This document shows, in pieces, positions 3,015 to 59,014 of a stretch of 64,000 bases of DNA. The notes below the pieces were generated by a model. The model saw only the letters and a program-made list of their open reading frames with translations. It made no database searches and was not told the DNA's origin. The first letter of the stretch is position 1. The number at the start of each line of letters is the position of its first letter. The DNA is from Halostagnicola sp. A-GB9-2 (GTDB lineage: Archaea; Halobacteriota; Halobacteria; Halobacteriales; Natrialbaceae): the NCBI RefSeq assembly GCF_030068615.1, contig NZ_JASJOC010000005.1, forward strand, positions 124,001-188,000, given 5' to 3'. Both the position numbers and the translations under genes were made by a program.

Positions 3015-4910
3015 TTACCCGATGATAAGGGACACGAGGCTGTCGACTGCCGCGCCGACGTTCGAGGTCACGCTAGAGCGGCTGTCTGCGTCGTCGTCAT
3101 CGTCCGCGTTGTCGTCTTCGTCGTCTGCATCGTCGCCGTGGCCGCAGTTAGAATCGTAGGATTCGTCGTAGCTACTCTCGTCGCTGTCGCTCTGAGAGCT
3201 CTCGATCTCGGAGTCAGCGTCGGAGTCGGTTCGGGAGCTGTCCCGAGTCTCGGTATCGCTCTCGCTGTCGGTCCGGTCGAGGTTGCTTTCGGACTCGTTG
3301 TCGTCGCTGCTCTCGCTACGATCGGTCTCGCTAACGTTGGACTCGCTGTCCTGATCGCTGCTCGATTCGTGTTCGACGTCGTTGTTTTTGATCGTGTCGA
3401 CGCCAGTGTCGCTGTCGCTCTCGGTGTCGAGCGCGGAGTCAGTGCTTTCACTGCGATCGCTCTCGTTCATGTCGCTCTCGTCGGTGAGCGTACTTTGATC
3501 GTTCTCGCTGTACGTGCGGTCACTGGAGCTTTCGCTTTCGTCGAACTGGCTGTTCGTGCGTTCGTCGTCGGTATCCGAGGTTTCTAGGTCGCTTTCGTTC
3601 TGGTCACTCTCCGATTCGCTGCGGTCGCTTTCGTTCTGGTCACTCTCCGATTCGCTGTGAACTCGATCGCTGTCGGACGTACTCATCTTTCGGTCGCTCT
3701 CGTCGGCGGTCTTCTCGGAGCCGTGTCTGTCGGTCTCGCTCGCGTCGAGTTCGGCATCGTCGTTCTCGCTGTAGTCGCTCTCGTTGTCGGAGCTCGTGCG
3801 GTCGCTCTGGGTGAGTTCGCTCTGGCTCTCGTCGCGCTCCGATTCGTCGAAGGTGCTCTCGCTCACGCTTCGATCGCTTTCGCTCGTTTCGCGGTCGCTT
3901 TGTGCGCTCTCATCGGAGTCGCTGTCGCTGTCACTGTCGATTCGGTCGAAGGTGTCGCGGTCGTTCTGTCCGCGGTCGCTCGCGTCGCGTTCGTCGTGTT
4001 CGGATTCGCTCTCGCTCTCGGAGCTTTCGCTTTCGTTGGATTCGCTCTCGTCAAAGTCGCTTTCGTTTTCGTCGGTGTCGAAGTCGCTCACGTCGTGTGA
4101 GCTCTCGGAGCTTTCGCTCTCGTCGATGTCGCTCTCGTCCGAGTCACTCTGACTGTCGCTCTTGTCGAGGGTGCTCGCGGTGCGTTCGCTTACGTCGAAG
4201 TCGGAGTCGTCGTAATCGATGTCGCTCTCGGAACGGTCGCTTTCGCTCTCGTCCGACGCACTGTCGCTTTCGTCGGAGTCACTCTGACTGTCGCTCGAGC
4301 TCGAGTCGCTCGCGTCGGACGTGCTGTCACTCGCGCTCGAGTCGCTCTCGCTGTGGGTGCTGTCGGAGTTGGACTCGCTATCCTCGATGTCACTGACGTC
4401 GCGGTCGTTGTCGCTCTCGTCTTCGTTGATCTCGAGGTCGGAGTCGTCGATCTCGCTTTGACTTTCGGAGCGGTCGCTCTCGTCGATGTCGCTGACGCTA
4501 TGTTCGCTGGTAGCGTCGTGGTGTTCATCGCGGTCGTTCACTTCAGAAGTGCTCTGATCCCGGTCGACGTCGCTGTCGCTCGAGCTGTCACGGTCGCTCT
4601 GGTCGAACGTGCGCTCGTCCATGTCGCTCGAGCTATCGCTCGAACTGTCGCTTTCGCTCAGATCGGAATCGCTCGAGTGCTCGCGGTCATCGCTCGACGT
4701 GCGATCCCGGTCGCTACTGCTTTCGTACTCCCGTTCGTCCTCGTCGGCTGACGACATCGTGCTGTCGTCAACGTGTTCTCCTTCGTCACACCGATCGTCC
4801 ACTTGCATCGCGGCTTGGCCGGAACTTGCGCCAGCCGCCCCGCTCACGCCAACCACGCCGGCTAATACAAGGAGGCCAATCATTGTGATGACTGTTAGTT
4901 TCTGTCTCAT
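3015..4910 (-). CDS. Secreted Ser/Asp/Glu-rich repeat protein, copy 1
   Basis: 631 aa. A Sec-type signal peptide (MRQKLTVITMIGLLVLAGVV..., cleavage near AGAS) leads into a region of about 560 residues made almost only of Ser, Asp, Glu, Arg, Asn and Thr in irregular SD/ES/DES units. I find only two cysteines in the mature chain. One lies near the start (DDRCDEGEHVDDS) and one just before a short Asp-rich tail (SNCGHGDDADDED), so they bracket the repeat region. The extreme C-terminus (SNVGAAVDSLVSLIIG) is mildly hydrophobic. No enzymatic motif is visible. The downstream neighbour in genome order (5196-7085) is a clear paralogue with aligned blocks such as SEVNDR, SDIDE and SDSTHSE. By analogy with Sdr-type surface proteins it may be a surface stalk or matrix polymer, but that is inference. 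Confidence 0.8.
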   Translation of the reverse strand: MRQKLTVITMIGLLVLAGVVGVSGAAGASSGQAAMQVDDRCDEGEHVDDSTMSSADEDEREYESSSDRDRTSSDDREHSSDSDLSESDSSSDSSSDMDERTFDQSDRDSSSDSDVDRDQSTSEVNDRDEHHDATSEHSVSDIDESDRSESQSEIDDSDLEINEDESDNDRDVSDIEDSESNSDSTHSESDSSASDSTSDASDSSSSDSQSDSDESDSASDESESDRSESDIDYDDSDFDVSERTASTLDKSDSQSDSDESDIDESESSESSHDVSDFDTDENESDFDESESNESESSESESESEHDERDASDRGQNDRDTFDRIDSDSDSDSDESAQSDRETSESDRSVSESTFDESERDESQSELTQSDRTSSDNESDYSENDDAELDASETDRHGSEKTADESDRKMSTSDSDRVHSESESDQNESDRSESESDQNESDLETSDTDDERTNSQFDESESSSDRTYSENDQSTLTDESDMNESDRSESTDSALDTESDSDTGVDTIKNNDVEHESSSDQDSESNVSETDRSESSDDNESESNLDRTDSESDTETRDSSRTDSDADSEIESSQSDSDESSYDESYDSNCGHGDDADDEDDNADDDDDADSRSSVTSNVGAAVDSLVSLIIG

Positions 4911-5073
4911 CGTTACTCTCGAAACCTATGCCGTAGGTCACTGGAACCTCTGCTCGGGTATCTTAAAAACCGGAGACGAAGCCCCGGGGAGATACGGGAT
5001 AGATAGGGTCTTCTGGGGGTGATCAGTCCCGAACGGCCCGCTATCGACTGTCGCTGGTTGGTTACGTCCTCTC

Positions 5074-5153
5074 ATACTGTCGGCTGTAACTATGTGACGA
5101 TTCTTGCATCTTCGGGGCGACGAGAATTGTGAACGACGTACAGCCAACAGTAT
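5074..5153. repeat. 80-bp palindromic dispersed repeat, family 1, copy A
   Basis: The ends form an imperfect inverted repeat (ATACTGTCGGCTGTA with TACAGCCAACAGTAT). A second copy at 52057-52136 matches at 69 of 80 positions without gaps. It lies between the two Ser/Asp-rich genes, 43 bp past the stop of the second and upstream of the first, so it could act as a 3' structure, a promoter element or an inert mobile unit. It has no reading frame. Confidence 0.8.
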
Positions 5154-5195
5154 CAAAAATGGCGTGGGTGACGGACACGCGCTTTCGGTGTCTTC

Positions 5196-7085
5196 TTACT
5201 CGAGTTTGCTCACGTCGACGTCGAAGGTGCCGTCGCTGTTTTCGGAGATAATCCCCTTGCGCTCGAGTTCCTCGATGCTGTCACCGGTGACGATCAACCG
5301 TTCGGAGATCGTCTCGCAATCGGAGTCGGTCGTCTGTTCACGCTCGGTCTCGTCGCGTTCGCTCTGGGAACGTTCGCTTTCGTTCTCGCTGTCGGAGTCG
5401 CTCCGATCGCTGTCGCGCGTCTCGAGGTCGCGATCGCTCTCGCTGAGGTCGCGTTGACTCTCGCGTTCGCTGTCGTCAGTGCGCTCGCTGCGGTCGCGGT
5501 CGCTTTCGTCGCGGCTGCTGTCACGGTCGCTACTGCGCTCGCGTTCGGTGTCTCGATCCTCGCGTTCGTCGGTCCCCGTGTCGCTCTCGCTTTCGGTATC
5601 GAGTTCGGAGTCCGTGCGCTCGCTGCGGTCGCGGTCGCTTTCGTCGCGCTCGTCGGAGTACGTACTGCCGTCGCGTTCGCTCGAGGTCCGATCGCTTTCG
5701 CTGCCGCGGTCGGCGTGCTCGCTCTCGGCACGCTCTTCGTCGCTGTCGGTGGAGTCGACGCGCTGATCGCGGTGCTCGCTCTCGGCGTCGCTGCTGTCGC
5801 TGGCGTGTTCGTCGCCGGCGGATTCGCTCTGAGAGCGCTCGCTTTCGTTGCTGCTCGCGTTGCGTTCTCCCTGCTCGACGCCGCTCTCGTCACCCCCTCG
5901 AGTGCTCTCGCTTTCCTCGAGTGACGACTCGAGGGCCTCGTCCAGGAACGATTCACCGGTGAAGTCGTTTCGGTCGCTTTCGCTCCGATCGGTCTCGCTG
6001 GAATCGGCTTCGCTCTCCGCACGGTCCGTTTCGCTCGTCTCGCTATCGCTTTCGCTTTCGTGTTGCTCGCTCGAGTCCGCCTCCTCGCTCTCACCGTCGC
6101 TCTCGCCCTCGTACTGCTCGGAGGCGTCGGTGTCGTCGCCGCGGTCGAACCGGTCTTCGTCGATCCGTTCCGATTCGCCGTCGCTCACGAACCGATCGCT
6201 TTCGTCGCTTGAACTGGCGTCACTCTCGCTCTCGCGCTCGTCGAGTTCGCCCTCGCTGACGTCGCGTTCGCTTTCTTCGACGGTGCTGTCGTCGATATTG
6301 TGTTCGTCAGAGCCGCGTTCGGTTTCGCTCGTTTCGACGTCGCGGCTCTCGTTCTCGCTCGAGTCGCGCTCCGCGTCGTCGTAGTTGCTATCGCTCTCGG
6401 AACGGTCGCGGTCGCTTTCGTCCGTTGCCTCCTCTCGCTCGTCGGTCTCGAAGTCGCTTTCGTTAGCTCCCCGTTCGCTATCCTCGGAGGCGCGTTCGCT
6501 GGCGCTCGAATCGTCCTCGCTGTGCGTGCTGTCGGAACTCGAGTCGGTCGCGTCGCTCTCGCTGACATCGTGTTCGCTCTCACGTTCGTCTTCGTCGATT
6601 TCGACGTCGGTATCGTCGATCTCGGTTTCGCTGACGGAGTGATCACGTTCGTCGATGTCGCTCGCGTCGCGCTCGCTACTGGCATCGCGCTGTTCGTTGC
6701 GGTCGTTCACTTCGGACTCGGTTCCGTCGCGGTCGTACTCGCTTTCGTGAGTGCTATCGCGTTCATTGACGTCGCGTTCGGTCTCATCGAGTTCGCTCGA
6801 ACTGTCGCGTTCGCTGTCGCTTTCGCTTAGGTCTCGTTCGTGTTCGTTCTCTCTGTGATCGTTGTTCGACCGATCACGGTCGCTTTCACTTTGGCGCTCG
6901 CTCTCGGCGAGTTCACTGGTGATATCGACGTCTTCGTTCAGGTGTTCGCTCACGTCACATCGCTCGTCGTCGAGGGTGTAAACGACGGTCTCGTCGCTAC
7001 CGGTCGGGACGGCTCCGCTAGCGGCGATAACGCCACCGACCACCAGAAGGGCGGCTAACGCGAGGACACCAAGTTGATCTAACAT
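5196..7085 (-). CDS. Secreted Ser/Asp/Glu/Arg-rich repeat protein, copy 2
   Basis: 629 aa, paralogue of the neighbouring 631-aa protein and transcribed in the same direction. The N-terminus is a signal peptide (MLDQLGVLALAALLVVGGVIAAS). The mature start DDERCDVSEHLNEDVD mirrors DDRCDEGEHVDDS of the other copy. The body is a low-complexity Ser/Asp/Glu/Arg region with more Glu and Arg than copy 1, including many SDRDRSE-type units. The second cysteine lies near the end (SDCETISERL). It is followed by a small ordinary-looking domain (TGDSIEELERKGIISEN...FDVDVSKLE) that copy 1 lacks. The two-cysteine bracket is therefore conserved although the repeats have diverged. The two opposite strands of these genes also read open, which is a by-product of the codon pattern. 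Confidence 0.8.
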   Translation of the reverse strand: MLDQLGVLALAALLVVGGVIAASGAVPTGSDETVVYTLDDERCDVSEHLNEDVDITSELAESERQSESDRDRSNNDHRENEHERDLSESDSERDSSSELDETERDVNERDSTHESEYDRDGTESEVNDRNEQRDASSERDASDIDERDHSVSETEIDDTDVEIDEDERESEHDVSESDATDSSSDSTHSEDDSSASERASEDSERGANESDFETDEREEATDESDRDRSESDSNYDDAERDSSENESRDVETSETERGSDEHNIDDSTVEESERDVSEGELDERESESDASSSDESDRFVSDGESERIDEDRFDRGDDTDASEQYEGESDGESEEADSSEQHESESDSETSETDRAESEADSSETDRSESDRNDFTGESFLDEALESSLEESESTRGGDESGVEQGERNASSNESERSQSESAGDEHASDSSDAESEHRDQRVDSTDSDEERAESEHADRGSESDRTSSERDGSTYSDERDESDRDRSERTDSELDTESESDTGTDEREDRDTERERSSDRDSSRDESDRDRSERTDDSERESQRDLSESDRDLETRDSDRSDSDSENESERSQSERDETEREQTTDSDCETISERLIVTGDSIEELERKGIISENSDGTFDVDVSKLE

Positions 7086-7685: not shown

Positions 7686-8336
7686 TCACGCACCCGATTC
7701 GACGACGATTTCGACGTTGTCACCACCCCCAGCGCTCGCATCCTCGACGGATTCGACGCCCTCGAGGACGTACGTCTGTGGATCGACCGCTTCGCCGTTG
7801 ACGGCAACCACGACGCTATCCCCGTCGCCTTCGGTGAACGTCTCGCCGTCGACGACGAACTGATCCGTCGTCACGTCCATTTCGAGGGTTTCGAGCGCGT
7901 ATTCGATCGTCACGTCCTCGCAGTGGGTGTGCCAGACTTCAGCGCCGTCGGAGTCGTGAAAGTGAAAGCAACCGTCGCGTTCGATGTACTGTGGATCGTC
8001 GAACGCGACGGCGTCGTCGTCGATCGAAATGGCAATCGTGCCGTGTTCGTGTATCTCGCTCGAGATGTCTGGTTGGTGGACGGCCGAACTCGCGGCCGAT
8101 TCCGAACCTAGAAAGACCGTACTGTATCCGAGCACGAATAACACGAGGACGACGGCGACCCCCGTATAGAGCGCCACGTTTCGGCGGCGGATATTCCGCC
8201 GACTCGAGTTCTCGGACGAGACGTTCAGACGACGCTTATCGATGGTCGTTAGTTCGTCGGCGTGCTCGCGTCTAAGGTGGTCCTCGTACTCGTTGTCTGG
8301 GAGCGATTCGCCGCAGTAGGTGCAATGATCTGTCAT
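7686..8336 (-). CDS. Membrane protein with N-terminal C2H2-type zinc finger
   Basis: 216 aa from the ATG at 8336. Upstream codons in the same frame lack any family character. The N-terminus, MTDHCTYCGESLPDNEYEDH followed by LRREH, is a CxxC...HxxxxH zinc finger. A basic stretch (SSRRNIRRRN) and one membrane segment (about residues 52-72, ALYTGVAVVLVLFVLGYS) follow. The remainder, probably outside the cell, is acidic with two conserved-looking cysteines and several histidines (RDGCFHFHDSDGAEVWHTHC). That cluster could bind a metal such as copper or zinc, which is my inference. A positive-inside membrane orientation puts the finger in the cytoplasm. I do not recognise a named family. Confidence 0.7.
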   Translation of the reverse strand: MTDHCTYCGESLPDNEYEDHLRREHADELTTIDKRRLNVSSENSSRRNIRRRNVALYTGVAVVLVLFVLGYSTVFLGSESAASSAVHQPDISSEIHEHGTIAISIDDDAVAFDDPQYIERDGCFHFHDSDGAEVWHTHCEDVTIEYALETLEMDVTTDQFVVDGETFTEGDGDSVVVAVNGEAVDPQTYVLEGVESVEDASAGGGDNVEIVVESGA

Positions 8337-8555
8337 CAGTGTCGATACGACGACCAGGCGGGGACGGGCTATGAAGGGCGGTCGAAGAAACGGGTCGATC
8401 CGTTCGTCGTTTGGATTTCGCCCCGTGTGGGATCTGATTTCACCGGGAGGATTTTGGCTCCGCATAATGAGTTTTGTCCCTGCTATCCTCGTTTCTTCCC
8501 GGTTCGGCGGTAGTTTTCACCCACCGTATTTGCCGGTCCGCAACCGGGTTCGCCC

Positions 8556-9701
8556 ATGGACCGGATCGATCGTCGAACATATCTTTCTCTGGTCGTCGGT
8601 GGAACGCTCGTCCTCGCGGGCTGTGCCGGTGACGAGAACGATGGATCGGAGAGCGAACCGGCCACAGAGAACCCGTCTGTGGAGGAGGACGAACCCTCCG
8701 CTTCGACGAGTGAAACCGAACCGACGGACGAATCAGCCGATTCGGACGAACCGACAACGGTTGAAATCGGGGAACTCCTCGAGGCGGACGACCTCCGCTT
8801 GGTCGTCTACGCGCTCGATCGAGTGGACGACGTGGGTATGGGATCGAGCGGACCGTCGTCGGGACCGAACGCGGGGGTAGCGGGATCAAACGCGAGGGTA
8901 GCAAGATCGGAGAACGAACTGCTCGAGGCGAGCGATGGGACGACGTTTGCAGTCGTCGACCTCGCTCTGCAGTACGTCGGCGATGAGCCGGTCGCAACGG
9001 TCGACGATCGGCTAACAATCGAACTCGCCGACGAAACCGGGGAGCGCCACGAACACGTAAGGGTACCCGAACGAGAAGCGACAGGCACCGGCGAGGAACC
9101 GTCCGACGGCGGCGAAGGGACGGCATTTGTTGACGACCTCCGACTCGCACCCGGCGAGGTCGCTCGCGGGAACCTCCTCTACGAAGTCGATGAGGACGCC
9201 GAGGAACTGGTCCTCGACCTCGAGATAGGCGAGGAGACCGAGGAGTACGTCCTCGACCTCGAGTCGGAAGCCGACTCGCCCGAGACGATCGAACAGGACC
9301 TGACCGGGGACGTGCTCAGCTTTTCTCAGGGCGTCGAAACGGCCGACCTCGAGGTCGCGGTAACGGGCCTCGAGCACGGAAACAACCTCGGCGGATTCAT
9401 GCAGTCCGACGAGGGGTACGAAATCGTCGCAGTCGGGGTCACGTTCGAGAACGAAAGCGGACGCGAGTACACCCTCTCGTCGGAGCAAGCCCAGCTCAAA
9501 GACGAGTCCGGCTACAGTTACGAGCAGGCGGCTGGTGTCGTGAGGGCGCTCGAGGGCTTCGACGATGACGTTCTGGAAGATGCTGAGGAGTCCGATCGGA
9601 AAGTCGCCTACCAGATCGAGGAGGGGATTTCCGAGCTGTACTGGGTGTTCGACTTTGGGGAGGGAGGAGCGGATCGACGAGCGTTCTGGAAGTTGCGGTG
9701 A
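8556..9701 (+). CDS. Secreted lipoprotein with tandem DUF4352-like domains
   Basis: 381 aa. MDRIDRRTYLSLVVGGTLVLAGC combines a twin-arginine motif with lipobox LAGC, the usual haloarchaeal Tat-lipoprotein arrangement. A Ser/Glu/Thr-rich linker follows to about residue 70. Two similar beta-sandwich domains come next: about 72-215 (FAVVDLALQYVGDEPVAT) and about 235-380 (YEIVAVGVTFENESGREYTL). Each has the 'I + V-V-V + F-N' strand pattern of DUF4352/telokin-like lipoproteins, which bind at the cell surface. The gene is divergent from the zinc-finger membrane protein at 7686-8336, with a shared 219-bp promoter gap. Ligand unknown. Confidence 0.78.
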   Translation: MDRIDRRTYLSLVVGGTLVLAGCAGDENDGSESEPATENPSVEEDEPSASTSETEPTDESADSDEPTTVEIGELLEADDLRLVVYALDRVDDVGMGSSGPSSGPNAGVAGSNARVARSENELLEASDGTTFAVVDLALQYVGDEPVATVDDRLTIELADETGERHEHVRVPEREATGTGEEPSDGGEGTAFVDDLRLAPGEVARGNLLYEVDEDAEELVLDLEIGEETEEYVLDLESEADSPETIEQDLTGDVLSFSQGVETADLEVAVTGLEHGNNLGGFMQSDEGYEIVAVGVTFENESGREYTLSSEQAQLKDESGYSYEQAAGVVRALEGFDDDVLEDAEESDRKVAYQIEEGISELYWVFDFGEGGADRRAFWKLR

Positions 9702-10619: not shown

Positions 10620-13160
10620 CTATCGCTCGCCTGGCTCGTTCGTCTCGTCGGGAAATAACATCGCGTACAGCTTTCGCTGGGCAGCACGGAGGTGATGGTT
10701 GAACGTTGGTTGGCTAATACCGAGACTACCCGCGACCATTTCTCCGGTGGCGGTTCGAGGGATATCGAAATAACCGCTCGCGAACGCCGTTTCGAGGGCT
10801 TCGAACTGTTTCGCCGTTAACGCCGTCTCGAGTTCCGCGAGAAACCCGTAGCTCGTCTGATCGACGTACTCGCGATCCTGCCGACGGAGCAGCGTCGAAT
10901 CCGCGTACATGCGGTCGAATACGTCCGCGAATTCGCGAACGTCGGCATACTCCGCAAGGACGACGACCAGACGGCCGACCCCATCGGTTGCGGTGATCAC
11001 TTTCGGAACGACTCCGTATTCGAGCAGGCGAGCGACGACGCTCTCTTCCGTGAGTGTAGACTCGAACAGGCGTTTTTCACCCCGTTCCGTAACGAGATGC
11101 GTCGCTGTGACGGCCGGGGACCGACCCGCCAATTCGAGAATCGTTCCGACGGAGCTCCCATCGATGGTGAATACCTCGCGAATCGAGCCATCGGGCCGGG
11201 ATGTAACCGACTCGAACTCGTAGGTACACTCCGTTTCTCGTGTCCACTCGAGGAACTCGATTTCGGGATCGCTGACCCGAAACTCGAGTTCGATGCCGCC
11301 TCGGTCAACGAGGGCGGCTCTGGTCGCTATCGCGTGGACGGCGTGACCGATCCACCGCCCGAGTTCCTCGAATAGCTCGCGTTCCGGCCCACCGAACGCG
11401 TCAGCGTTCTCGCTGTACACCGCCAGTGCGCCGTATCTTCGCTCTTTGAACACGAGTGGAACGGCGATGACGGACCGATACCCGTGTGCGATCGCGCTCT
11501 GACGCCACCGTTCGTCGGCCGCGTCCACTACGAGATGCTGAACGACCTGCGATTCGAGGGTGTGGATCGCACGGGCCGTCGGTTCGCGGTCGTCGAGGAG
11601 GGTGTTGCCATCGTGCTCTATGCTCTCGAGGTATCGCATTTCGGATCCAGCGGACGCCCGTTCGCGTAGTTTCTCACCTCCCCTCTGACGATCGGCGATT
11701 CGGGCGAACGAGTACCGGTCGTTCGCGATAGTTTCCTCGCAGATTCGTCGCTCGAGTTCGTCTCGCGTCCACGCGGTTCGAATTACTCGACCGACGTGTC
11801 GAACGAGTTCGTTCGTCTCGTCGAGTTGTTCGTTCGTTTCTATCGTCGCCTCGAGTTGCCGGTTGTACGCTTCCAACTGCCGTTGGCTGTCAAGACGATC
11901 TAACGCGTTCCCTCCGATGGCTCCGTAGAGGCGTATGAGCGCGTGATCGAACGACAACCGTCGATCGCCGTCGGTAGTGCCGACACAAAGAATTCCGTGT
12001 GTTCCGACCGGAACGACGATGCCACGGGCTCGTTCGGGATCGTATACGGGAGTCGCCGGTCTGGGCAGCAACTCGGCAACGAGAACCGGGTCGTGGTCGA
12101 TGAACGCTGTCCATTCGGGTGTCGACGCGTCCTCGAGCGGGATGGTGGTGGCTCCGTTCTTCGAACGCGGACTCACGGCTCGACGACGGAGCGCATCTTC
12201 GGACTCGTCGTACAGGTAGATGCTGACGTACGCGGCGCCTCGAGTCTCTTTGATCGCCTCGACGACGGCCTCACAGATCTCTTTCGCCTGGACTGTTTCT
12301 CTCGTGACACTCGACCCGACGAGTGACTCGAGTCCGGCGAGGTATCGCGCTATCTCGTCGTCGGTTCCCTCGTTGCTATCGTCTCCGGTATCGAAACCCT
12401 CGGTGAGAGCCGTCGCGGTACACACGTAGTTGTTACCGTCAGTTCGACTGATCGACGTTCGAACCGGGAACCGCTGCCCGTCGGGACGGACGGCGATCGA
12501 CTCGTCGATCGCTCCGCCGTACGATCGCACGCGCTTGACGAGACGTTCGTAGTGGCAGGATTCGTCGTTCGGAAACACCATCGACCACGATTTGCCGATC
12601 AACTCTTCGGGAGCGTATCCGTGTAATTCCGCGTAACTCTCACTGACGGCGTCGAATACCAGCGACTCGTCTAGTAAACTGCTTCCCTCGACGACATTTC
12701 TGGAACTGGTAGCACCTCGTGATACCGACCGGTCGCCCTCGCTCGCGCGGCGGCGAGCAACGACGGCCGCCACTCTCGACGCCAACCACCGAAATCCGAG
12801 ATCGGTGGATCCCTTCCACAGATAATCCGTCGCTCCTTCCGAGAGGGCCTCGCTAACGAGGTCGTCAGCACGTGCTTCGGTGAAGATAATGTACGGGAGA
12901 TCGGGAGCGGATTTGCGGACGGTTCGAAGGAGGTCCAGCCCGCTCGTCTCCTGCATGCGAACTTCGCTGACGACGCAGTCGGTCCACTCAAGCGAGCGAC
13001 GGACCTCCGTTTCGCTAGAGGCGACGGTCACGCTGATATCGAACTCGTCTTCGAACACGGTCGTCGCGGCTTCGATCGACGCCTCGTTCGTATCGACGAA
13101 AAGGACCCGTATGGGCCCACCGGCAGGTCGGCCGTCATCAGTTGGTGTCGTACTGTTCAT
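10620..13160 (-). CDS. Bat-type sensor/transcription regulator: degenerate receiver, PAS, two GAF, HTH
   Basis: 846 aa, cytoplasmic. Domains in order: a receiver-like domain (about 16-130, starting PIRVLFVDTNEAS); a PAS domain (about 160-255, SYAELHGYAPEELIGKSW); a GAF domain (about 265-415); a second GAF domain (about 445-600); a Bat-associated region (about 615-770); and a C-terminal bacterio-opsin-activator helix-turn-helix (about 780-835, LTAKQFEALETAFASGYFD). The phosphoacceptor Asp expected in VVSD is Glu here (CVVSEVRMQ), and the acidic pair after strand 1 is reduced to DT. The receiver is therefore unlikely to be phosphorylated and may be locked or repurposed. The neighbouring 971-aa regulator has the same C-terminal architecture. 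Confidence 0.88.
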   Translation of the reverse strand: MNSTTPTDDGRPAGGPIRVLFVDTNEASIEAATTVFEDEFDISVTVASSETEVRRSLEWTDCVVSEVRMQETSGLDLLRTVRKSAPDLPYIIFTEARADDLVSEALSEGATDYLWKGSTDLGFRWLASRVAAVVARRRASEGDRSVSRGATSSRNVVEGSSLLDESLVFDAVSESYAELHGYAPEELIGKSWSMVFPNDESCHYERLVKRVRSYGGAIDESIAVRPDGQRFPVRTSISRTDGNNYVCTATALTEGFDTGDDSNEGTDDEIARYLAGLESLVGSSVTRETVQAKEICEAVVEAIKETRGAAYVSIYLYDESEDALRRRAVSPRSKNGATTIPLEDASTPEWTAFIDHDPVLVAELLPRPATPVYDPERARGIVVPVGTHGILCVGTTDGDRRLSFDHALIRLYGAIGGNALDRLDSQRQLEAYNRQLEATIETNEQLDETNELVRHVGRVIRTAWTRDELERRICEETIANDRYSFARIADRQRGGEKLRERASAGSEMRYLESIEHDGNTLLDDREPTARAIHTLESQVVQHLVVDAADERWRQSAIAHGYRSVIAVPLVFKERRYGALAVYSENADAFGGPERELFEELGRWIGHAVHAIATRAALVDRGGIELEFRVSDPEIEFLEWTRETECTYEFESVTSRPDGSIREVFTIDGSSVGTILELAGRSPAVTATHLVTERGEKRLFESTLTEESVVARLLEYGVVPKVITATDGVGRLVVVLAEYADVREFADVFDRMYADSTLLRRQDREYVDQTSYGFLAELETALTAKQFEALETAFASGYFDIPRTATGEMVAGSLGISQPTFNHHLRAAQRKLYAMLFPDETNEPGER

Positions 13161-13866
13161 CGCGATTTAGGAACATGATCTTCTACTCTCAACTAGCGTC
13201 GGAACTTGTCGTCTCTATCTTAGCGGTGCGCCAGCGTTGAGCACACCGTCGGGGCGTCGAGAGCCGTTTATCCGGGTTTCTTCGGCAGGGTGCTCTTGAG
13301 GTTTGATCGGGTCGGTTGTACCTGTTTACCGGTCAGTCGCCAGAGCGGGGTGGTAGCTGGCCGGAAATGACGTACAACCGACCCTATGAGGTGGCGGGAT
13401 ATCGTGGGACTAGTTATCACTGTATTCAGTGGCGTTACGAACGGAGAAAGTCAGTGCCTATGCTGTCAGCGTACGCGAACCGATGTACATTGGGTGGATA
13501 CCGTCTCCCGATTGTAGCCTACCGTCGCCGGCCGGGTTGGCCACTCGCCGGCTCTATTCTGCGCGTTCTCGTTTTTCTTATCGATGAACTCGAGTGGGTG
13601 AATAGAACCTCTTATATGAAACCTGCCACTATTCGAATCGGCTCGGCTGTCGACGGGGACTATTCACGTAGTGCGTCCGGTTAAGCCCGTGGCTGAACGA
13701 AGCCACGGTGAAGAACATGACCGAACGGGGAAGCATCCACTCGGACGGCGACGAATCTACCCGGACGAATCAACGCAATCGCGGGATGTTAGACTGGGTT
13801 CCACGTTGTGTCGATTCGATGAAACGGAGTCTCACGACCGCAGTCGTCCCCTTTCTCGTGTGTTTC
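13161..13866. other. Long gap between divergent genes holding a dispersed palindrome
   Basis: About 700 bp separate the Bat-type regulator from the likely start of the subtilase. The 76-bp palindromic repeat at 13312-13387 lies in it. Near the right end, an 8-bp stem CCGTGGCT (13687-13694) with AGCCACGG (13701-13708) and a 6-nt loop could be a leader hairpin or the end of an old transposon. The subtilase frame is open through the last 160 bp, but the composition there does not look protein-like. Confidence 0.4.
13312..13387. repeat. 76-bp palindromic dispersed repeat, family 2, copy A
   Basis: The ends form the inverted repeat TCGGTTGTAC with GTACAACCGA. A second copy at 32069-32144 agrees at 66 of 76 positions without gaps. 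The central GTCGCCAGAGCGGGGTGG block is identical in both. It has no open frame. The spread as whole units at unrelated loci suggests a miniature mobile element. Confidence 0.8.
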
Positions 13867-16317
13867 GTGTCGATAGCCCATCGAGGGATCTCACGGCGAA
13901 ACGCACTCGGGGTGCTCGGTACCGGTCTCGCGAGTGTCCTCGGAATCACTCCCGCAACTGGCGACGGGACAGCGGACGAAGCCGATACCGACCGGTACGT
14001 CGTCGGTCTCGAGGAGGGGACCTCGAGCGCCAGCGTCTCGCGGAAGGCAACACAAATACACCGGTCGCTCGATCTCTCTTCGAACGGGGGCGTCGTCGTC
14101 GCCAGCTTCGACGACAAGGCGCGCCAGGAGTTCGAGGCGCGATCGGACGTCAGATACGTCGAACGAGACCACATCCGTCGACCGCAGATTCACAGCACGG
14201 TCGAACCGGCCGACACCGTAGACCTCGGGACGGGGCAAAAGTCTCCCTGGGGCGTCGAACGGGTCGGGGCGACGGATTTTCACGACAGCACGGAGGGAAG
14301 TGACGGCGGATCCGTTGCCGTCCTCGATTCCGGCATCGACCCCGAACACGAAAGTCTCGAGGTGGCCGACGGTGAGGCGTTCACCGAGTGTAGCGGGTCC
14401 ACCTGTGAAGCAGAGTGGGACGACGAAATCGGTCACGGAACCCACTGTGCCGGCACGATCGGTGCACTGGACAACGGAGCCGGTGTCGTCGGTGTTGCTC
14501 CCGGATGCGATATATACGCGCTCAAGGTCCTTGCGGGCGACGGCTCCGGATACGATTCCGACATCGCCGCCGCTATCGAATGGTGCGCTGACAACGATAT
14601 CGATGTCATCAACCTGAGTCTCGGGGGAAGCGACGAGGCGCAGGTGCTCGAGGATGCCCTGCAATACGCCTACGAACGTGGATTGCTCGTCGTCGCCGCG
14701 GCCGGCAACGACGGCTCCGCGGCTGGAGTCGACTACCCGGCGGGCTACGACGAGTGTATCGCCGTCGGCGCGACGGACGACCGCGACGAGATTCCCGAGT
14801 GGTCGGCCCGCGGCGACACCGTAGAACTCGTCGCGCCGGGAGCCGACGTGCTGTCGACGCAACCCGGGGACGAGTACGTTTACCTGAGCGGGACATCCAT
14901 GTCAACGCCACACATTTCCGGCATCGGTGCCCAACTGATGAGCCAGGGGCTTCCCCACGCCGAAGACACGACGGATTTCGACGATCCGGGCGGCGTTCGC
15001 GGGATCCTTCGTGAGACTGCAGAAGATCTCGACTTCGACGACGACGAGCAGGGATACGGTCTGCTGAACGCGTTCGACGCCCTCGACGAACTCGACCCCA
15101 TCAGCACTGAAGACGTCACCGATATCCGGACGAACACCGCGACGTTCACAGGAATGATCATGTCACTCGAGGATACCGGTGCCGTCGACGGCTCCTTCCA
15201 GTGGCGCGAATCCGGCGGTTCCGAGTGGGACGAGACGGAGTCACAATCGCTTGAGGGCGGCGAGGAGTTTACCGCGGTGGTCGACGAGCTGAACCCCGAT
15301 ACCGAGTACGACGTCCGTGCAACCCTCGACGACGGCGACGAGACCACGGCCGCAAACGTCGTAACGTTCACGACTGGAATCGACGGTCTCGCCGTCGAAA
15401 CCGGCGATATCGAAGTCGACGATCACAGAACGGTACAGGCAGTCGGGGAACTAACGGGGCTCGGAGACGACGAGACCGTCGAGGTGGCCTTTCAAACTCG
15501 GCGTGCAGGCGACGACGAGTGGGAGACAACCGACTCCAGCTCCCTCGAGGCGATTGGCATCTTCGAGGATGATATTTCGGGCCTCGAGCCCGAAACCGAA
15601 TACGAGATCCAGGCGGTGGTCGAGAGTGATGGGGAGACCGCGACCGGCAATGTCGCGACGGTCGAAACCGATCCGGAACCGGGGCTGCCGACGATCGAGC
15701 GGTTTGAACTCACCGACGATAGTACGGATCAGTTCGTTCGGTGTAACGTCCACTGGGACGTTTCAGACCGGGACGACGCGCTCGAACTCGTCGCGACCGA
15801 ACTTCAGTATGCGGACGACGAGGAGGTTATTCATCGGATCGGAGCCGAGGTCGAAGGGGGGACAGAGAGCGGTATCCACACGGTCAGAAACAGCGACCGA
15901 TTCGAGGGGGCCGGCGAGGCCTACGACGTGACGCTCTCGGTTACCGATGCTGAGGGGAATGTTACCGAGGAGACGGAGCGTATCGAACTCGACGAACGAT
16001 CCCCGGCACCTGCTATCGATCGATTCGAAATTACCGCCGACGATTTCCTCGGTTCACCCGAGGCCGTCGTCGAGTGGGAGGTCTCCGATGAGGGCGCGGA
16101 ACTCGACGGCGTGGAACTCGAGATGCGGCTCGTCGGCGACTCCTCGGTCGTCGATTCCGCGAGTTCGATGGCGCGTGACGACGAAGCGGCTGGTACGGAT
16201 TCGCTCACGGACCGGGACGGGAGCGAGGGCGAGACGGAGTATGACGTTACGATCCGAGTAATCGACTACTTCGAACAGACGACCGAAGAAACGACGCGAG
16301 TGATGTTGGGTGATTAA
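13867..16317 (+). CDS. Secreted subtilisin-like serine protease (halolysin type) with C-terminal beta domains
   Basis: From the GTG at 13867 the protein is 816 aa and starts with a classic Tat signal: VSIAHRGISRRNALGVLG. The frame is open further upstream to 13708, but that extension would put another hydrophobic stretch before the twin arginines, so I prefer this start. After an inhibitor-I9-type propeptide (about 40-115, YVVGLEEGTSSASVS...VRYVERDH), the S8 catalytic domain carries Asp (VAVLDSGID), His (GHGTHCAG) and Ser (GTSMSTPH). A catalytic-loop Asn lies in AAAGNDGS. The last 400 residues are three or four acidic fibronectin-like repeats (for example PDTEYDVRATLDDG, PETEYEIQAVVESD). It would be exported folded and degrade extracellular protein. 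Confidence 0.88.
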   Translation: MSIAHRGISRRNALGVLGTGLASVLGITPATGDGTADEADTDRYVVGLEEGTSSASVSRKATQIHRSLDLSSNGGVVVASFDDKARQEFEARSDVRYVERDHIRRPQIHSTVEPADTVDLGTGQKSPWGVERVGATDFHDSTEGSDGGSVAVLDSGIDPEHESLEVADGEAFTECSGSTCEAEWDDEIGHGTHCAGTIGALDNGAGVVGVAPGCDIYALKVLAGDGSGYDSDIAAAIEWCADNDIDVINLSLGGSDEAQVLEDALQYAYERGLLVVAAAGNDGSAAGVDYPAGYDECIAVGATDDRDEIPEWSARGDTVELVAPGADVLSTQPGDEYVYLSGTSMSTPHISGIGAQLMSQGLPHAEDTTDFDDPGGVRGILRETAEDLDFDDDEQGYGLLNAFDALDELDPISTEDVTDIRTNTATFTGMIMSLEDTGAVDGSFQWRESGGSEWDETESQSLEGGEEFTAVVDELNPDTEYDVRATLDDGDETTAANVVTFTTGIDGLAVETGDIEVDDHRTVQAVGELTGLGDDETVEVAFQTRRAGDDEWETTDSSSLEAIGIFEDDISGLEPETEYEIQAVVESDGETATGNVATVETDPEPGLPTIERFELTDDSTDQFVRCNVHWDVSDRDDALELVATELQYADDEEVIHRIGAEVEGGTESGIHTVRNSDRFEGAGEAYDVTLSVTDAEGNVTEETERIELDERSPAPAIDRFEITADDFLGSPEAVVEWEVSDEGAELDGVELEMRLVGDSSVVDSASSMARDDEAAGTDSLTDRDGSEGETEYDVTIRVIDYFEQTTEETTRVMLGD

Positions 16318-28195: not shown

Positions 28196-29704
28196 ATGCC
28201 CGTCCGCCCACCGACGAAAGACGACCTCAGAGAACTCGGATCGGATCTTTTTCTCGACCTGACGGCCGAGGAACTCGAGGCCCTGCAGGAACTGATCGTC
28301 GACAAACTCGATTCCTACGAGTCGATCCGATCGTCCCGACCCAAATCGAGTTTTGGCGGAACCGAACCGCGACTTCGTAGTTCGGGGGTTAGAGCGACCG
28401 ACAACCCCCACCACGCCTGGGTCACCCGTTGCATCGTCGAGGGCGACGAAGACGGTGATCTCGAGGGGTGGGACATCGGCATCAAGGACAACATCTGCGT
28501 TGCCGGCGTCGAGATGACCTGCGGATCGAACGTCGTCGAGGGCTACGTTCCCAACGTAGACGCGACCGTCGTCACCCGCTTGCTCGAGGCCGGCGCTGAC
28601 GTGGTCGGTAAGACCAACATGGACGACATGGCGATAACGCGAACCGGGCACAGCGCATTCGGGACCATCACCAACCCTCGCGACGACGACTATCTGGCCG
28701 GCGGCTCGAGCGGGGGAAGCGCGGTCGCAGTCGTCGAGGACGAGGTCGACGTGGCTATCGGATCCGACCAGGGCGGCAGCGTTCGCATCCCGGCCGCCCT
28801 CTGTGGAATCGTCGGGCACAAACCCACCTACGGGCTTGTGCCGTACACGGGCTGTGTCGGGTTGGAGCACACGATCGATCATCCGGGGCCGATGGCCAGC
28901 GATGTCGAAACGGCCGCACGAACCCTTTCAGCGATCGCCGGAAGCAACGAGCGCCACCTCCGACGACCGAGCACGGTCCCCGTCGAAGAGTACGAGGAGG
29001 CCCTCGACGGTGACGTATCGCAACTGTCTATCGGCGTGCTCGAGGAAGGGTTCGGGAAATCTGACGGTGATCCGGCGGTCGACGAACAGGTGCTCGAGGC
29101 CATCGACCGTCTGGAGGACGAGGTTGCGTCCGTCGAGGAGGTGTCGGTTCCGCTGCATCTAGAAGGGACAGACATCCACTCGGTCTGTACGAACGAGGGG
29201 TTGGTCGGTGCGCTGAGCGGTCAGGGGGTTGGTCACGGGTGGAAAGCGTGGTACAATACGCCGTGGGTCGAATCATTCGGGAAGTTCCGACGAGCCCAGA
29301 GCGACGACTTCTCGGCGATGTTCAAACTGTCGTTGCTCATAGGTGCGTATACGGGCCGGCGGTATCACTCACGGTTCTATGCGGCCGGGATGAACTTGCT
29401 CGTCGAACTGGCCCAACGATACGACGAAGCACTCGAGACGTACGACGTTCTCGTCATGCCCACGACGAGCGTCACCGCTCCCGAACACGACCCCGACATG
29501 GACGATTTCGACCGATTACGGGAGGTATCGGTCCCTTCGAACACGGCCCCGTTTAACAGAACCGGCCATCCAGCGCTGTCCGTTCCGGCGGGAACGGTCG
29601 ACGGCCTTCCCGTCGGCCTCATGATCGTCGGCTCTCGGTTCGACGACGCAACGGTCCTCAACGCGGGATATGCGCTTGAGCAGGTGCGATTAGATGGCGG
29701 GTAG
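28196..29704 (+). CDS. Signature amidase, copy 1
   Basis: 502 aa. The amidase-signature triad Lys-Ser-Ser is visible: Lys in GIKDNICVAG, the cis-Ser in AGGSSGGSAVAV, and the nucleophile Ser in DQGGSVRIPAALCG. The N-terminal helical extension (PTKDDLRELGSDLFLDLTAEE) and the HHAWVTRC segment match the nitrile/aliphatic-amide amidases of the Rhodococcus type. It would hydrolyse an amide to acid and ammonia in the cytoplasm. Copy 2 at 32208 is a close relative. It is divergent from the SSS symporter. The physiological amide is unknown. The ATG start is confirmed by the matching start of copy 2 (MPIHPPTEKDLRKLG). Confidence 0.9.
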   Translation: MPVRPPTKDDLRELGSDLFLDLTAEELEALQELIVDKLDSYESIRSSRPKSSFGGTEPRLRSSGVRATDNPHHAWVTRCIVEGDEDGDLEGWDIGIKDNICVAGVEMTCGSNVVEGYVPNVDATVVTRLLEAGADVVGKTNMDDMAITRTGHSAFGTITNPRDDDYLAGGSSGGSAVAVVEDEVDVAIGSDQGGSVRIPAALCGIVGHKPTYGLVPYTGCVGLEHTIDHPGPMASDVETAARTLSAIAGSNERHLRRPSTVPVEEYEEALDGDVSQLSIGVLEEGFGKSDGDPAVDEQVLEAIDRLEDEVASVEEVSVPLHLEGTDIHSVCTNEGLVGALSGQGVGHGWKAWYNTPWVESFGKFRRAQSDDFSAMFKLSLLIGAYTGRRYHSRFYAAGMNLLVELAQRYDEALETYDVLVMPTTSVTAPEHDPDMDDFDRLREVSVPSNTAPFNRTGHPALSVPAGTVDGLPVGLMIVGSRFDDATVLNAGYALEQVRLDGG

Positions 29705-32068: not shown

Positions 32069-32144
32069 TCGGTTGTACCTGTGTACCGGTTTGTCGCCAG
32101 AGCGGGGTGGCGAACGGCCGGAAATGACTGACAACCGACCCTAT
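32069..32144. repeat. 76-bp palindromic dispersed repeat, family 2, copy B
   Basis: Matches 13312-13387 at 66 of 76 positions. The terminal arms TCGGTTGT and ACAACCGA are inverted. It lies 63 bp upstream of the second amidase ATG, in its promoter region, so it could influence that gene. Confidence 0.8.
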
Positions 32145-32207
32145 CAGACAACGAATGTCACTGCAGCTGAATCAAGATATTTGTCGGGACGTAATGAGAT
32201 GGGCACT

Positions 32208-33704
32208 ATGCCGATCCATCCACCAACCGAAAAAGACCTTCGAAAACTGGGCGAATCGATGTTTCTCGACCTCCGACCCGAGGAGCTCAAGGCCTTCCGG
32301 GAACTGATCGTCGACCGGCTAGATTCCTACGAGACGATACAGTCGTACGATCCCGAACCGCGACCCAGGGGAACGGAGCCTCGTCTCCGGAATTCGGGCA
32401 CCAGAGCGACCGACGACCCCCACCACGCCTGGGTCTCTCGCTGTTTCGTCGAGGGGGACGAGGACGGCGACCTCGAGGGCTGGGACGTCGGCATCAAGGA
32501 CAACATCTGCGTCGCGGGCGTCGAGATGACCTGCGGATCGAACGTCGTCGAGGGCTACGTTCCCAACGTCGACGCCACGGTCGTCACCCGCTTGCTCGAG
32601 GCCGGCGCGGACGTGGTCGGTAAGACTAACATGGACGACATGGCGATCACCGAAACGGGCCACAGCGCCTTCGGAACGATCACGAACCCGCACGACGACG
32701 ACTACCTGGCCGGCGGCTCGAGCGGGGGAAGTGCGGTCGCAGTCGTCGAAGGCGAGGTCGACGCCGCGATCGGCACTGATCAGGGCGGGAGCATTCGGTT
32801 ACCGGCCGCTTTTTGTGGAATCGTCGGACACAAACCCACCTACGGGCTCGTCCCGTACACGGGCTGTGTCGGGTTGGAACATACCATCGATTACCCGGGG
32901 CCGATGGCCGCCGATGTCGAAACGACCGCGCGGATGCTTTCCGCGATCGCCGGCAGTAACGATGCGCACCTCCGGCGGCCGAGTACGGTTCCCGTCGAAG
33001 AGTACGAGGAGGCCCTCGAGGGCGACGCGTCTGCGTTGTCCATCGGCGTGCTCGAGGAGGGGTTCGGGAGATCGGGCGGTGACCCGGCAGTCGACGAGCA
33101 GGTACGCGATTCTCTGGCATCCCTCGAGGACGAGGGTGCGACCGTCGAAGACGTTTCAGTACCGTTGCATCGAGAGGCCCCGAAGGTCCACGCTGTCTGT
33201 ATGAACGAAGGGCTCGTCGCCGCGATGAGCGGTCAGGGGGTGGGCCACGGCTGGAAAGCGTGGTACAACACGTCCTGGGTCGAATCGTTCGGCAAGTTCC
33301 GACAGGCCCAGAGCGACGATTTTCCGGCAATGTTCAAGTTATCGCTACTCATGGGCGCGTACACGGCCGAACGATATCACTCCCGGTTCTACGCGGCCGG
33401 GATGAACCTCATGGTGGACCTGGCCGAGCGCTACGACGAGGCACTCGAGGAGTACGACGTCCTCGCCATGCCGACGGTGAACGTAACCGCACCCGAGTGC
33501 GACCCGGATATGGACGAGTTCGAACGTATTCGAGAACTCGAGATTCCCGGGAACAACTCGCCGTTCAATCGGACCGGACATCCGGCTGTGAGCGTTCCCG
33601 CGGGGCAGGTCGACGGGCTTCCCGTCGGACTTATGCTGGTCGGCTCGCGGTTCGACGACTCGACCGCCCTCGACGCTGCATACGCGCTCGAAACGGTGCG
33701 ATAA
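32208..33704 (+). CDS. Signature amidase, copy 2
   Basis: 498 aa from the ATG at 32208. The upstream ATG at 32073 lies inside the dispersed repeat and is not credible. It is a close paralogue of copy 1 across its length. The triad residues are again present: KDNICVAG, AGGSSGGSAVAV and DQGGSIRLPAAFCG. Substrate-pocket stretches such as GHGWKAWYNT are shared. Differences cluster in the middle (about 300-340) and near the C-terminus, so specificity may differ. Tandem duplication separated by a metallophosphoesterase relic and a BASS carrier suggests an old duplication. Product: acid plus ammonia. Confidence 0.9.
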   Translation: MPIHPPTEKDLRKLGESMFLDLRPEELKAFRELIVDRLDSYETIQSYDPEPRPRGTEPRLRNSGTRATDDPHHAWVSRCFVEGDEDGDLEGWDVGIKDNICVAGVEMTCGSNVVEGYVPNVDATVVTRLLEAGADVVGKTNMDDMAITETGHSAFGTITNPHDDDYLAGGSSGGSAVAVVEGEVDAAIGTDQGGSIRLPAAFCGIVGHKPTYGLVPYTGCVGLEHTIDYPGPMAADVETTARMLSAIAGSNDAHLRRPSTVPVEEYEEALEGDASALSIGVLEEGFGRSGGDPAVDEQVRDSLASLEDEGATVEDVSVPLHREAPKVHAVCMNEGLVAAMSGQGVGHGWKAWYNTSWVESFGKFRQAQSDDFPAMFKLSLLMGAYTAERYHSRFYAAGMNLMVDLAERYDEALEEYDVLAMPTVNVTAPECDPDMDEFERIRELEIPGNNSPFNRTGHPAVSVPAGQVDGLPVGLMLVGSRFDDSTALDAAYALETVR

Positions 33705-56938: not shown

Positions 56939-57040
56939 ACGGGTTGACAGAAAATCGTCTCAGTAGCCATACTATTCACCTGAGCAACACGTGCAGGTGA
57001 AGTGGTAATGCCTATGTGTAAGGAGATAGAATGTAGGGGC

Positions 57041-59014
57041 ATGGAAAGTGAATTAGCCACGAAGAAAGAAGAAGTCCCGACAGCGGCGACGCTCACCGTC
57101 GACAACATCGGCGGTATCGACAGTGCCGAAGTGAGCTTCCAACAGGGTGTTACCGTCCTGTCCGGCCGTAACGCAACAAACCGAACGTCGCTTCTCCAGG
57201 CCATCATGGCGGCGCTGGGAAGTGATCAAGTGAGTCTCAAAGCCGATGCGGACGAGGGCAGCGCCGAACTCGAGTTCGGCGACGAGCGATACCGACGAAA
57301 GCTCGAGCGCCAGAACGGGACGATCATCACCGACGGCAATCCGTACCTCGACGACCCGGACATCGCAGATCTGTTCGCCTTTTTGCTCGAGTCGAACGAA
57401 GCGCGCCGAGCAGTCGCTCGAGGCGACGACCTTCGGGAACTGATCATGCGCCCGGTCGATACGGCCGCGATTCAGGCCGAAATCGAACAGTACGAGCAGC
57501 GAAAGCGATCGATCGACGAGCAACTCGAGGAACTCGACAACCTCGAGCAGCGACTCCCCGACCTCGAAGCCAAGCGCAAACGCGTTTCCGACGAAATCGA
57601 AGACCTCGAGGCGGAACTCGAGCAAGCCCAGGAAGAACTCGATGAAGCGAACGTCGACGTCGAAGAACGCCGCGAAGAGCAATCCGAACTCGAGAACAAG
57701 CTCAGCGAGCTCCGAGAGACCCGGTCGGATCTCGAACGGACCAGAGATCGAATCGAAACCGAACGCGAGAGCATCGACGCACTCGAGGACGAGCGAGAGG
57801 AGGTCCAAGAGCAACTCGAGTCCCTCTCGACCGGCGAAGAGACCGATATCGGCCGGATCGAGGCCGAAATCGAGACCCTGCAGGAAGAAAAGGCGGACCT
57901 CTCGAAAGAGATTTCCCAACTCCAGAGCACCATCCAGTTCAACGAACAGCTCCTCGACGAGCCGGATTCGGTTCTCGCGGACGCGAACCAGCCGGTCGAC
58001 GACGGCAACGACGACGGGGCGATCACCGACCAGTTGCTCGACGATTCCGAGACGGTCACCTGTTGGACCTGTGGCTCCTCGGTCGCCAAAGAACAGATCG
58101 AGACGACGATCGAACAGCTCCGCGACGCGCGCCAAGATCGGATTCAGGAACGAACCGAGATCAACAGCGACCTCGAAGACCGTCGAGAGACCGTCTCGAA
58201 CATTAACGAAAGTCGAAGTGAGTACCAGCAGACACAGCGGCGACTCGACTCGATCGACGACGAAATCGAGAACCGAACGAATCGGATCGACGAGCTGACC
58301 GACGAGCGCGAGGAGCTCACCGACGAAATCGACGACCTCGAGGCCGAAATCGACGACCTCGAAACCGAAGAGTACGACGGCATCCTCGACCAGCACAAGG
58401 AAGTCAACCAGCTCGAGTTCAAACTCGAACGGAAAGAGCGAGAACGAGACGATATCGAGGACGAGATCAGTTCTATCGAAAAGCAACTCGGCAACCGCGA
58501 GGATCACAAAGCGCGCCGCGAGGACGTGACCGACGAACTGACCGACCTCAGAACGCGGATCGACCAGATCGAGGAAACCGCGGTCGAGGCGTTCAACGAA
58601 CACATGGAAAACTTGCTTGAAACCCTCGAATACGGGAACCTCGACCGCGTCTGGATCGCGCGAACGACTCGAGAGGCTCGCGAAGGACGCAGAAAGGTAA
58701 CGAAATCGTCGTTCGACCTGAAAATCGTCCGGAGCACCGACGACGGCGCGGCGTACGAAGACTCGATCGAACACCTGAGCGAGAGCGAACGGGAGGTGAC
58801 GGGGCTCGTCTTCGCACTCGCGGGCTATCTCGTCCACGACGTCTACGAGACGGTTCCGTTCATGCTTCTGGACTCCCTCGAGGCGATCGACTCGGATCGG
58901 ATCGCCTCGGTTATCGAGTACTTCGAGTCGTACGTGCCGTACCTCGTCGTCGCACTGCTGGACGAGGACGCCCAGGCAATCGAGACCGAGCACGAACTGG
59001 TCACCGAAATCTAA
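57041..59014 (+). CDS. sph: Archaeal SMC-related protein (Sph type)
   Basis: 657 aa from the ATG at 57041 (MESELATKKEE), chosen over a GTG at 57002 because family proteins begin about 15 residues before LTVDNIGG. The head has VTVLSGRNATNRTSLLQAI, a Walker A with Arg where Lys is usual, then two long coiled coils (about 155-325 and 360-530). They are joined by a Rad50-like hook containing CWTCGS, and the C-terminal head has HLSESEREVTGLVFALAGY and FMLLDSLEAID. Signature and Walker B are thus also atypical. The Arg form seems usual in this archaeal family. Role in chromosome or cell-shape control is inferred from its partner RdfA. Confidence 0.82.
   Translation: MESELATKKEEVPTAATLTVDNIGGIDSAEVSFQQGVTVLSGRNATNRTSLLQAIMAALGSDQVSLKADADEGSAELEFGDERYRRKLERQNGTIITDGNPYLDDPDIADLFAFLLESNEARRAVARGDDLRELIMRPVDTAAIQAEIEQYEQRKRSIDEQLEELDNLEQRLPDLEAKRKRVSDEIEDLEAELEQAQEELDEANVDVEERREEQSELENKLSELRETRSDLERTRDRIETERESIDALEDEREEVQEQLESLSTGEETDIGRIEAEIETLQEEKADLSKEISQLQSTIQFNEQLLDEPDSVLADANQPVDDGNDDGAITDQLLDDSETVTCWTCGSSVAKEQIETTIEQLRDARQDRIQERTEINSDLEDRRETVSNINESRSEYQQTQRRLDSIDDEIENRTNRIDELTDEREELTDEIDDLEAEIDDLETEEYDGILDQHKEVNQLEFKLERKERERDDIEDEISSIEKQLGNREDHKARREDVTDELTDLRTRIDQIEETAVEAFNEHMENLLETLEYGNLDRVWIARTTREAREGRRKVTKSSFDLKIVRSTDDGAAYEDSIEHLSESEREVTGLVFALAGYLVHDVYETVPFMLLDSLEAIDSDRIASVIEYFESYVPYLVVALLDEDAQAIETEHELVTEI

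Follow-up and report, generated by a model that had tools for sequence, protein, structure and literature searches.

Two adjacent genes of the haloarchaeon Halostagnicola sp. A-GB9-2 (Natrialbaceae) raise the question of whether a chain made largely of serine and acidic residues is formless, or folds into something definite. The genes lie on the minus strand of a 64,000-nucleotide stretch (positions 124,001 to 188,000 of contig NZ_JASJOC010000005.1; the whole stretch is called here the window) and code for proteins of 631 amino acids (aa; copy 1, 3015..4910) and 629 aa (copy 2, 5196..7085). Each protein contains, as an earlier note on this DNA had reported, exactly two cysteines, which bracket the Ser/Asp/Glu-rich chain. 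These are Cys41 and Cys589 in copy 1, Cys43 and Cys590 in copy 2, at a distance of 548 and 547 residues, respectively. D, E and S account for 67% (copy 1) and 62% (copy 2) of the residues in between. The two copies, correctly taken as paralogues in the same note, are 43% identical over their full length and align almost without gaps, which is odd for low-complexity sequences, and was the first hint of a hidden structure. We regard it as quite probable that each protein folds as a single, giant antiparallel beta hairpin of two strands, closed at the base by its two cysteines.

Chain length in the family

Relatives were searched with a profile of the C-terminal mini-domain of copy 2 in 125 Natrialbaceae genomes and in a 243-genome sample of the order, and 34 family members (19 copy-1 and 15 copy-2 proteins) were examined. 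Conservation of the cysteines among homologues was a check set by the earlier note, and none of the 34 proteins lacks either residue.

The Cys-Cys distance is exactly 548 in 18 out of 18 copy-1 proteins found paired with copy 2. Pairwise identities among these proteins range from 43% to 94%, and the sequences can be aligned without any gap over a tree of about 1790 substitutions; folded neighbours in the same genomes feature 0.4-5.6 gaps per 100 residues. In one genus (five sequences) the aligner can place a two-residue gap which is compensated 14 residues on, the net change being zero. The distance is 536 in an orphan copy 1 (genome G063). In copy 2 it varies slightly (541-551, once 504), and the tails following the second cysteine vary freely, from 26 to 77 aa. 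Copy-2 indels cluster at the chain midpoint (p 1e-5, for positions chosen after the data had been seen), most of them at or near residues R315-G-D-D318, and the single one-residue gap between the two window copies is also found at the midpoint. The clustering suggested a hairpin, which was then tested.

Antiparallel register and pair code

The charge at residue i was correlated with the charge at residue K-i for about 440 values of K. Although the data had prompted the hairpin test, the value that would decide it (K identical to the Cys-Cys distance) was set before the scan. The strongest negative correlation was found at K=548 in copy 1 and at K=547 in copy 2. The best K coincides with the own Cys-Cys distance of the protein in 33 of 34 single sequences (range 504 to 551), and the distances tracked in this way include 504, 541, 544, 545, 546, 549 and 551. 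Correlations are of about -0.5, which corresponds to a z of about -7 relative to Markov shuffles of order 2-4; z values within the family are not independent, the sequences being related, and the effect is present in single sequences. Unrelated acidic open reading frames of the same DNA reach at most -4.3 in this statistic, full-length family members range from -5.5 to -9.6, and the frames flagged as non-family beyond -4.3 turned out to be truncated genes of the family itself.

Acidic residues rarely face each other in this register. Acid-acid rungs are 4 in copy 1 and 6 in copy 2, where 41 and 44, respectively, are expected, and acid faces acid at 0.10-0.15 of expectation. E-R rungs are enriched 3.2x, E-L and E-V rungs 2.8x, D-S rungs 2.2x; D-D (0.07x) and R-S (0.12x) rungs are depleted. 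E is preferentially found opposite R, V, L and A, and D opposite S, N, G and H. It seems reasonably likely that this pair code, acid-acid pairs being left out, is a natural rule set for polar beta ribbons stable at high salt.

Compensating changes across the rungs

The register also emerges from changes among relatives. After removal of column means, covariation has peaks at two values of K only, 548 and 547, both with z -4.7. Between close orthologues, 24 reciprocal acid swaps across a rung were counted, 5.1 being expected, and a single double change in the same direction, 6.1 being expected. The antiparallel register is under selection.

Proteins altered in one arm are informative. The register of the orphan copy 1 in G063 is K=536 at the base and 524 at the tip, that of copy 2 in G023 is 544 at the base and 537 at the tip. 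One-arm deletions thus shift the register on the tip side and leave it in place on the base side, as a hairpin requires. Extra contact sums remaining after the fitted model described below (K=380 in copy 1, 365 in copy 2) differ between the copies and were set aside.

Geometry of the coupling

The positions of acids were fitted by a logistic regression model including cross-strand terms. Direct coupling across the strands is strongest at offset 0 (z -16.5) and marked at offsets ±2 (z -9.3 and -7.8); it is about zero at ±1 and +3, with weak terms only at -3 and -4. Even offsets correspond to same-face neighbours in an antiparallel beta ladder, and coupling at 0 and ±2 accordingly points to side chains alternating between two faces, as in such a ladder. 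With the cross-strand terms added, the held-out area under the curve rose from 0.80 to 0.88 for a genus which the model had not seen, and from 0.85 to 0.90 when the model was carried from copy 1 to copy 2.

A turn-like motif is found at the midpoint in most family members, either DRGxND, with a three-residue loop, in copy 1, or DRGDD, with a two-residue loop, in copy 2. The tip column of copy 1 is Gly in 14 of 18 sequences.

Proposed architecture

Length constraint, antiparallel register, pair code, compensating changes, even-offset coupling and gene pairing are all computed directly. The beta structure as a physical fold, the intrachain disulfide, export, anchoring and a coat function are what we infer, as follows.

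Both copies carry a hydrophobic segment at the N-terminus, which may be a cleaved signal or an anchor, and both proteins are probably exported. In copy 1 the chain would leave the membrane, or base, end at Cys41 (4788..4790, minus strand as all the features of the two genes; the surrounding DRCD motif is invariant in the copy-1 family), and run outward for about 272 residues as putative strand N (residues 42-313, 3972..4787). It would turn at the DRG/N motif in its exact middle (R313-G-Q-N-D317, 3960..3974, the midpoint of K=548), and run back for about 272 residues as putative strand C (residues 317-588, 3147..3962) to Cys589 (3144..3146). Both strands are assigned by antiparallel complementarity at K=548, residue i lying opposite residue K-i, with K the Cys-Cys distance. 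The second cysteine would be bonded to the first, the disulfide stapling the base; the suggestion of the earlier note that a disulfide may join the chain ends fits this picture, as the conserved cysteines may link both ends of one chain. Copy 2 would be built in the same way from Cys43 (6957..6959, within an invariant DDERCD motif) through a predicted tip at R315-G-D-D318 (6132..6143, the midpoint of K=547) to Cys590 (5316..5318). Almost every rung would hold at most one acid, and acids on one face would be kept apart. At the textbook rise of about 0.33 nm per rung, ~273 rungs would make a needle of about 90 nm, and the pair of proteins, with 273-274 rungs each, two needles of equal length.

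The base is the part for which a model offers some detail. AlphaFold2 (AF2) predicts in copy 2 two ten-residue strands, one preceding Cys43 (residues 33-42, the ETVVYTLDDE region, 6960..6989, by DSSP of the model), the other spanning residues 591-600. The residue sum of the two, 633, equals Cys43+Cys590; the register would pair V-V, V-I, Y-L, T-T, T-R and R-E, and the pairing of these strands is suggested by the DSSP assignment. The tails following the second cysteine differ in kind. That of copy 1 (42 aa) is an acidic linker with a short helix (residues 618-630, 3021..3059, AF2 model of low confidence), that of copy 2 (39 aa) a conserved mini-domain (residues 591-629, 5199..5315), which is defined by alignment and modelled with a predicted local distance difference test (pLDDT) score of 62-67. 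The earlier note had assigned an extra C-terminal domain to copy 2 alone; both copies have tails of ~40 aa. The mini-domain, the copy-1 helix and, probably, a co-inherited membrane protein described below would hold the base. Export would proceed via the N-terminal hydrophobic segment, anchoring would occur where the N-terminus and the C-terminal tail meet, and the needles would stand outside the cell as a layer of highly charged bristles.

Several observations weigh against this architecture. AF2, run with a 10-sequence alignment, gives a pLDDT of 37 for both proteins, and no strands inside the Cys bracket. The composition is strongly disorder-like, with almost no hydrophobic residues, so that the stability of an isolated two-stranded ribbon may hinge on high salt, cations or lateral assembly. 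Copy 2 of G247 is without 43-47 residues of one arm, and some loss of register is hence tolerated. The midpoint clustering of copy-2 indels is a post hoc observation.

Alternative explanations

The main rival is an antiparallel homodimer, in which two identical chains are opposed over all 548 residues to form a ribbon of about 180 nm, both ends being closed by a bond between Cys-N of one chain and Cys-C of the other. The i + j = K signature, the length constraint and the tolerance at the midpoint are equally expected from this arrangement, which we consider unlikely, yet worth keeping in mind. Two opposed chains need no midpoint turn, yet the Gly/Asn turn-like DRGxND motif is kept, and the midpoint loop differs by one residue between the paralogues; moreover, AF2 joins the N- and C-terminal strands within one copy-2 chain, though at low confidence.

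The partner of copy 1 might instead be copy 2, the two chains forming a heterodimer (antiparallel or parallel) or a four-stranded ribbon. The two genes occur together in all 15 intact genomes and are nearly equal in length, and the orphan copy 1 of G063 is the sole copy 1 with a changed length. Covariation between the copies, however, reveals no convincing register (the best antiparallel value is z -2.7 at 546, the best parallel one z 3.1 at -25), and the length shifts of copy 2 (541-551, 504) are not matched by shifts in copy 1, which leaves this arrangement improbable.

Marginally less credible is a formless charged brush, a disordered polyanion which would coat the cell and bind water or cations, the cysteines serving for attachment only. 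Composition, Uversky-type charge/hydropathy and AF2 all indicate disorder. A brush, however, predicts neither fixed length nor exact register, nor residue-specific pairing, compensating swaps and even-offset coupling, and is already contradicted by the covariation. The earlier note had proposed a highly charged exported polymer. The charges and the probable export stand, and the family comes as a pair of genes; formlessness is at odds with the fixed length and the exact antiparallel charge register.

An antiparallel alpha-helical hairpin of the coiled-coil type is very improbable. Constant length despite divergence is typical of coiled-coil rods (PMC8598163), and the spectra of S and of acids peak near 3/7. 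Yet offsets 0 and ±2 are coupled and offsets ±1 and +3 are not, acid exclusion is 0.1x averaged over all rungs, whereas positions b, c and f of a coiled coil make no contact, and there are no hydrophobic core positions. A serine/acid periodicity near 7/3 residues, considered as a feature in its own right, was dropped, not being significant against Markov shuffles in most sequences.

Least credible of all is an origin in nucleic acid, either an old inverted repeat or a long hairpin of the gene or mRNA: an inverted repeat would also yield an antiparallel register, but base complementarity at the register is 0.32-0.36 over a background of 0.24-0.25, a level which unrelated offsets reach as well, no inverted repeats were found, and the Ser partners are mostly encoded by AGY codons, which are not complementary to GAY/GAR.

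Family and genomic neighbourhood

The mini-domain profile matches 17 of the 125 Natrialbaceae genomes, in 8 genera, and nothing outside Natrialbaceae in the 243-genome sample of the order. An intact gene pair is found in 15 of the 125 genomes. G063 has copy 1 only, and in G311 and G312 copy 1 is not linked to copy 2. G271 and G297 carry remnants only; that of G271 (locus L041, about 8340-8960) is a decayed copy 2, both ends of which lie in different frames after an internal out-of-frame deletion. The source genome has the two copies described here only. Natronorubrum texcoconense, N. bangense and N. thiooxidans carry relatives; that of N. bangense resides on a plasmid, the only plasmid with a relative, and none was found on viral contigs. 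A third gene of the copy-1 type is found in G062 (L037) and G067 (L039), its Cys-Cys distance being likewise 548.

In codon analysis, dN/dS (nonsynonymous over synonymous substitution rates) of copy 1 is 0.11-0.50, indicating purifying selection, and thus more than chance open frames. Very long open frames are also found on the plus strand over 3015-7085, as a consequence of the GC-rich codons of S, D, E and R, with no sign of a gene. Neither copy matches Pfam or NCBIfam above curated thresholds, in line with the earlier note, which knew of no described haloarchaeal family of this kind. Nothing credible was found for the copy-2 mini-domain in PDB and Pfam, where matches among six members were sub-threshold, one per family.

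The obligate neighbour (7686..8342, minus strand) encodes a protein with a zinc-finger-like CxxC...H..H N-terminus, one hydrophobic segment and an outer domain. The latter has no Pfam match above threshold and features an invariant CFHFH...WHxHC motif, probably a metal site. Close orthologues of this zinc-finger/transmembrane protein (above 270 bits) are present in the 16 genomes which have intact family members, and in these only; the remaining Natrialbaceae offer distant relatives at best, scoring under 160 bits. The gene pair and this neighbour were found together in 15 genomes.

Three more genes are frequent neighbours by synteny: a DUF4352 lipoprotein-like gene (8556..9701, plus strand; Pfam PF11611), a bacterio-opsin-activator-like helix-turn-helix regulator (10620..13160, minus strand), which we take to be Bat-like from its sequence, and a subtilase of the S8 family (13708..16317, plus strand; Pfam PF00082, 4e-57). 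In N. thiooxidans a membrane-anchored DsbA-like protein (L005:12448-13251; Thioredoxin_4, 3e-23) shares its zinc-finger/transmembrane N-terminus with the constant copy-2 neighbour, and its gene has copy 1 on one side and a third gene of the family on the other. DsbA was rejected as a constant partner, being seen in the lineage of the N. thiooxidans locus only. Elsewhere in the window, two similar amidase-like genes (28196-29704 and 32073-33704) flank an unrelated stretch, and a Rad50/SMC-like protein with a CWTC zinc-hook-like motif is encoded at 57002-59014 (plus strand).

Comparison with known systems

Haloarchaea have other surface polyanions, such as halomucin, poly-gamma-glutamate and Natronococcus glutaminylglycan. 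These are likewise acidic and extracellular; none is known to be at once gene-encoded, register-coded and disulfide-bracketed. The role of glycosylation scaffold envisaged in the earlier note finds no support in the sequences: the window copies have 8 and 5 N-glycosylation sequons, none of which is kept in more than 6 of 16 copy-1 sequences.

The same note had pointed to Sdr-type SD-repeat stalks on bacterial surfaces. Those of the staphylococcal Sdr/Clf proteins are also Ser/Asp-rich, acidic and associated with the cell surface. At the DNA level, Sdr repeats are genuine minisatellites, which are unstable and differ in copy number (PMC3324548). The haloarchaeal pair, in contrast, is fixed in length, has no tandem repeat and features a charge-complementary register. 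Nor does the term repeat proteins hold: Tandem Repeats Finder (TRF) detects in the gene pair short local arrays only, and no long tandem array, and both chains lack long internal repeats or strong long-range lags which would denote internal duplication. An antiparallel charge code exact in register leads one to expect a defined two-stranded structure, neither a formless polymer nor an Sdr-like stalk. LPXTG-type sorting signals are absent from the C-termini of the window copies, which were read directly; a chance-looking LPATG is found in one relative only (G033). Copy 1 contains a 36-bp near-perfect tandem duplication (3586-3657), yet the Cys-Cys total is still 548, as would be the case had one unit replaced the adjacent one.

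Long surface rods are known. SasG is an extended surface rod made up by a chain of small folded domains, the E domains being disordered alone (PMC4458895). The concept is shared with the SasG/Aap G5-E rods (PMC4458895), but SasG is modular and variable in length, the haloarchaeal protein presumably a single hairpin of ~273 rungs and fixed length. The evolutionary signature is that of the coiled-coil proteins of the synaptonemal complex, in which sequence diverges, length is held and indels are depleted (PMC8598163); here, coupling and composition favour a beta ladder over a coiled coil.

Implications

On balance we lean towards a new structural class: gene-encoded, charge-coded beta hairpins of hundreds of residues, free of a hydrophobic core and stapled by one disulfide at the base. 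They would be produced in pairs of equal length, and a dedicated membrane protein would place them on the cell surface. The hairpin would be, to our knowledge, by far the longest single one, and no single hairpin of such size is described in the open-licence papers searched. A chain taken to be disordered may betray its structure by a length free of indels, and the antiparallel scan for acid exclusion, with the register checked against terminal cysteines, is a simple test for any acidic protein labelled disordered. If the reading of these proteins as single giant hairpins is true, a hairpin would be built almost without hydrophobic residues, in a type of sequence set aside as low complexity by filters and by structure predictors. 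From the family one could then read a natural code for polar beta ribbons, and it would offer a molecular ruler exact to the residue.

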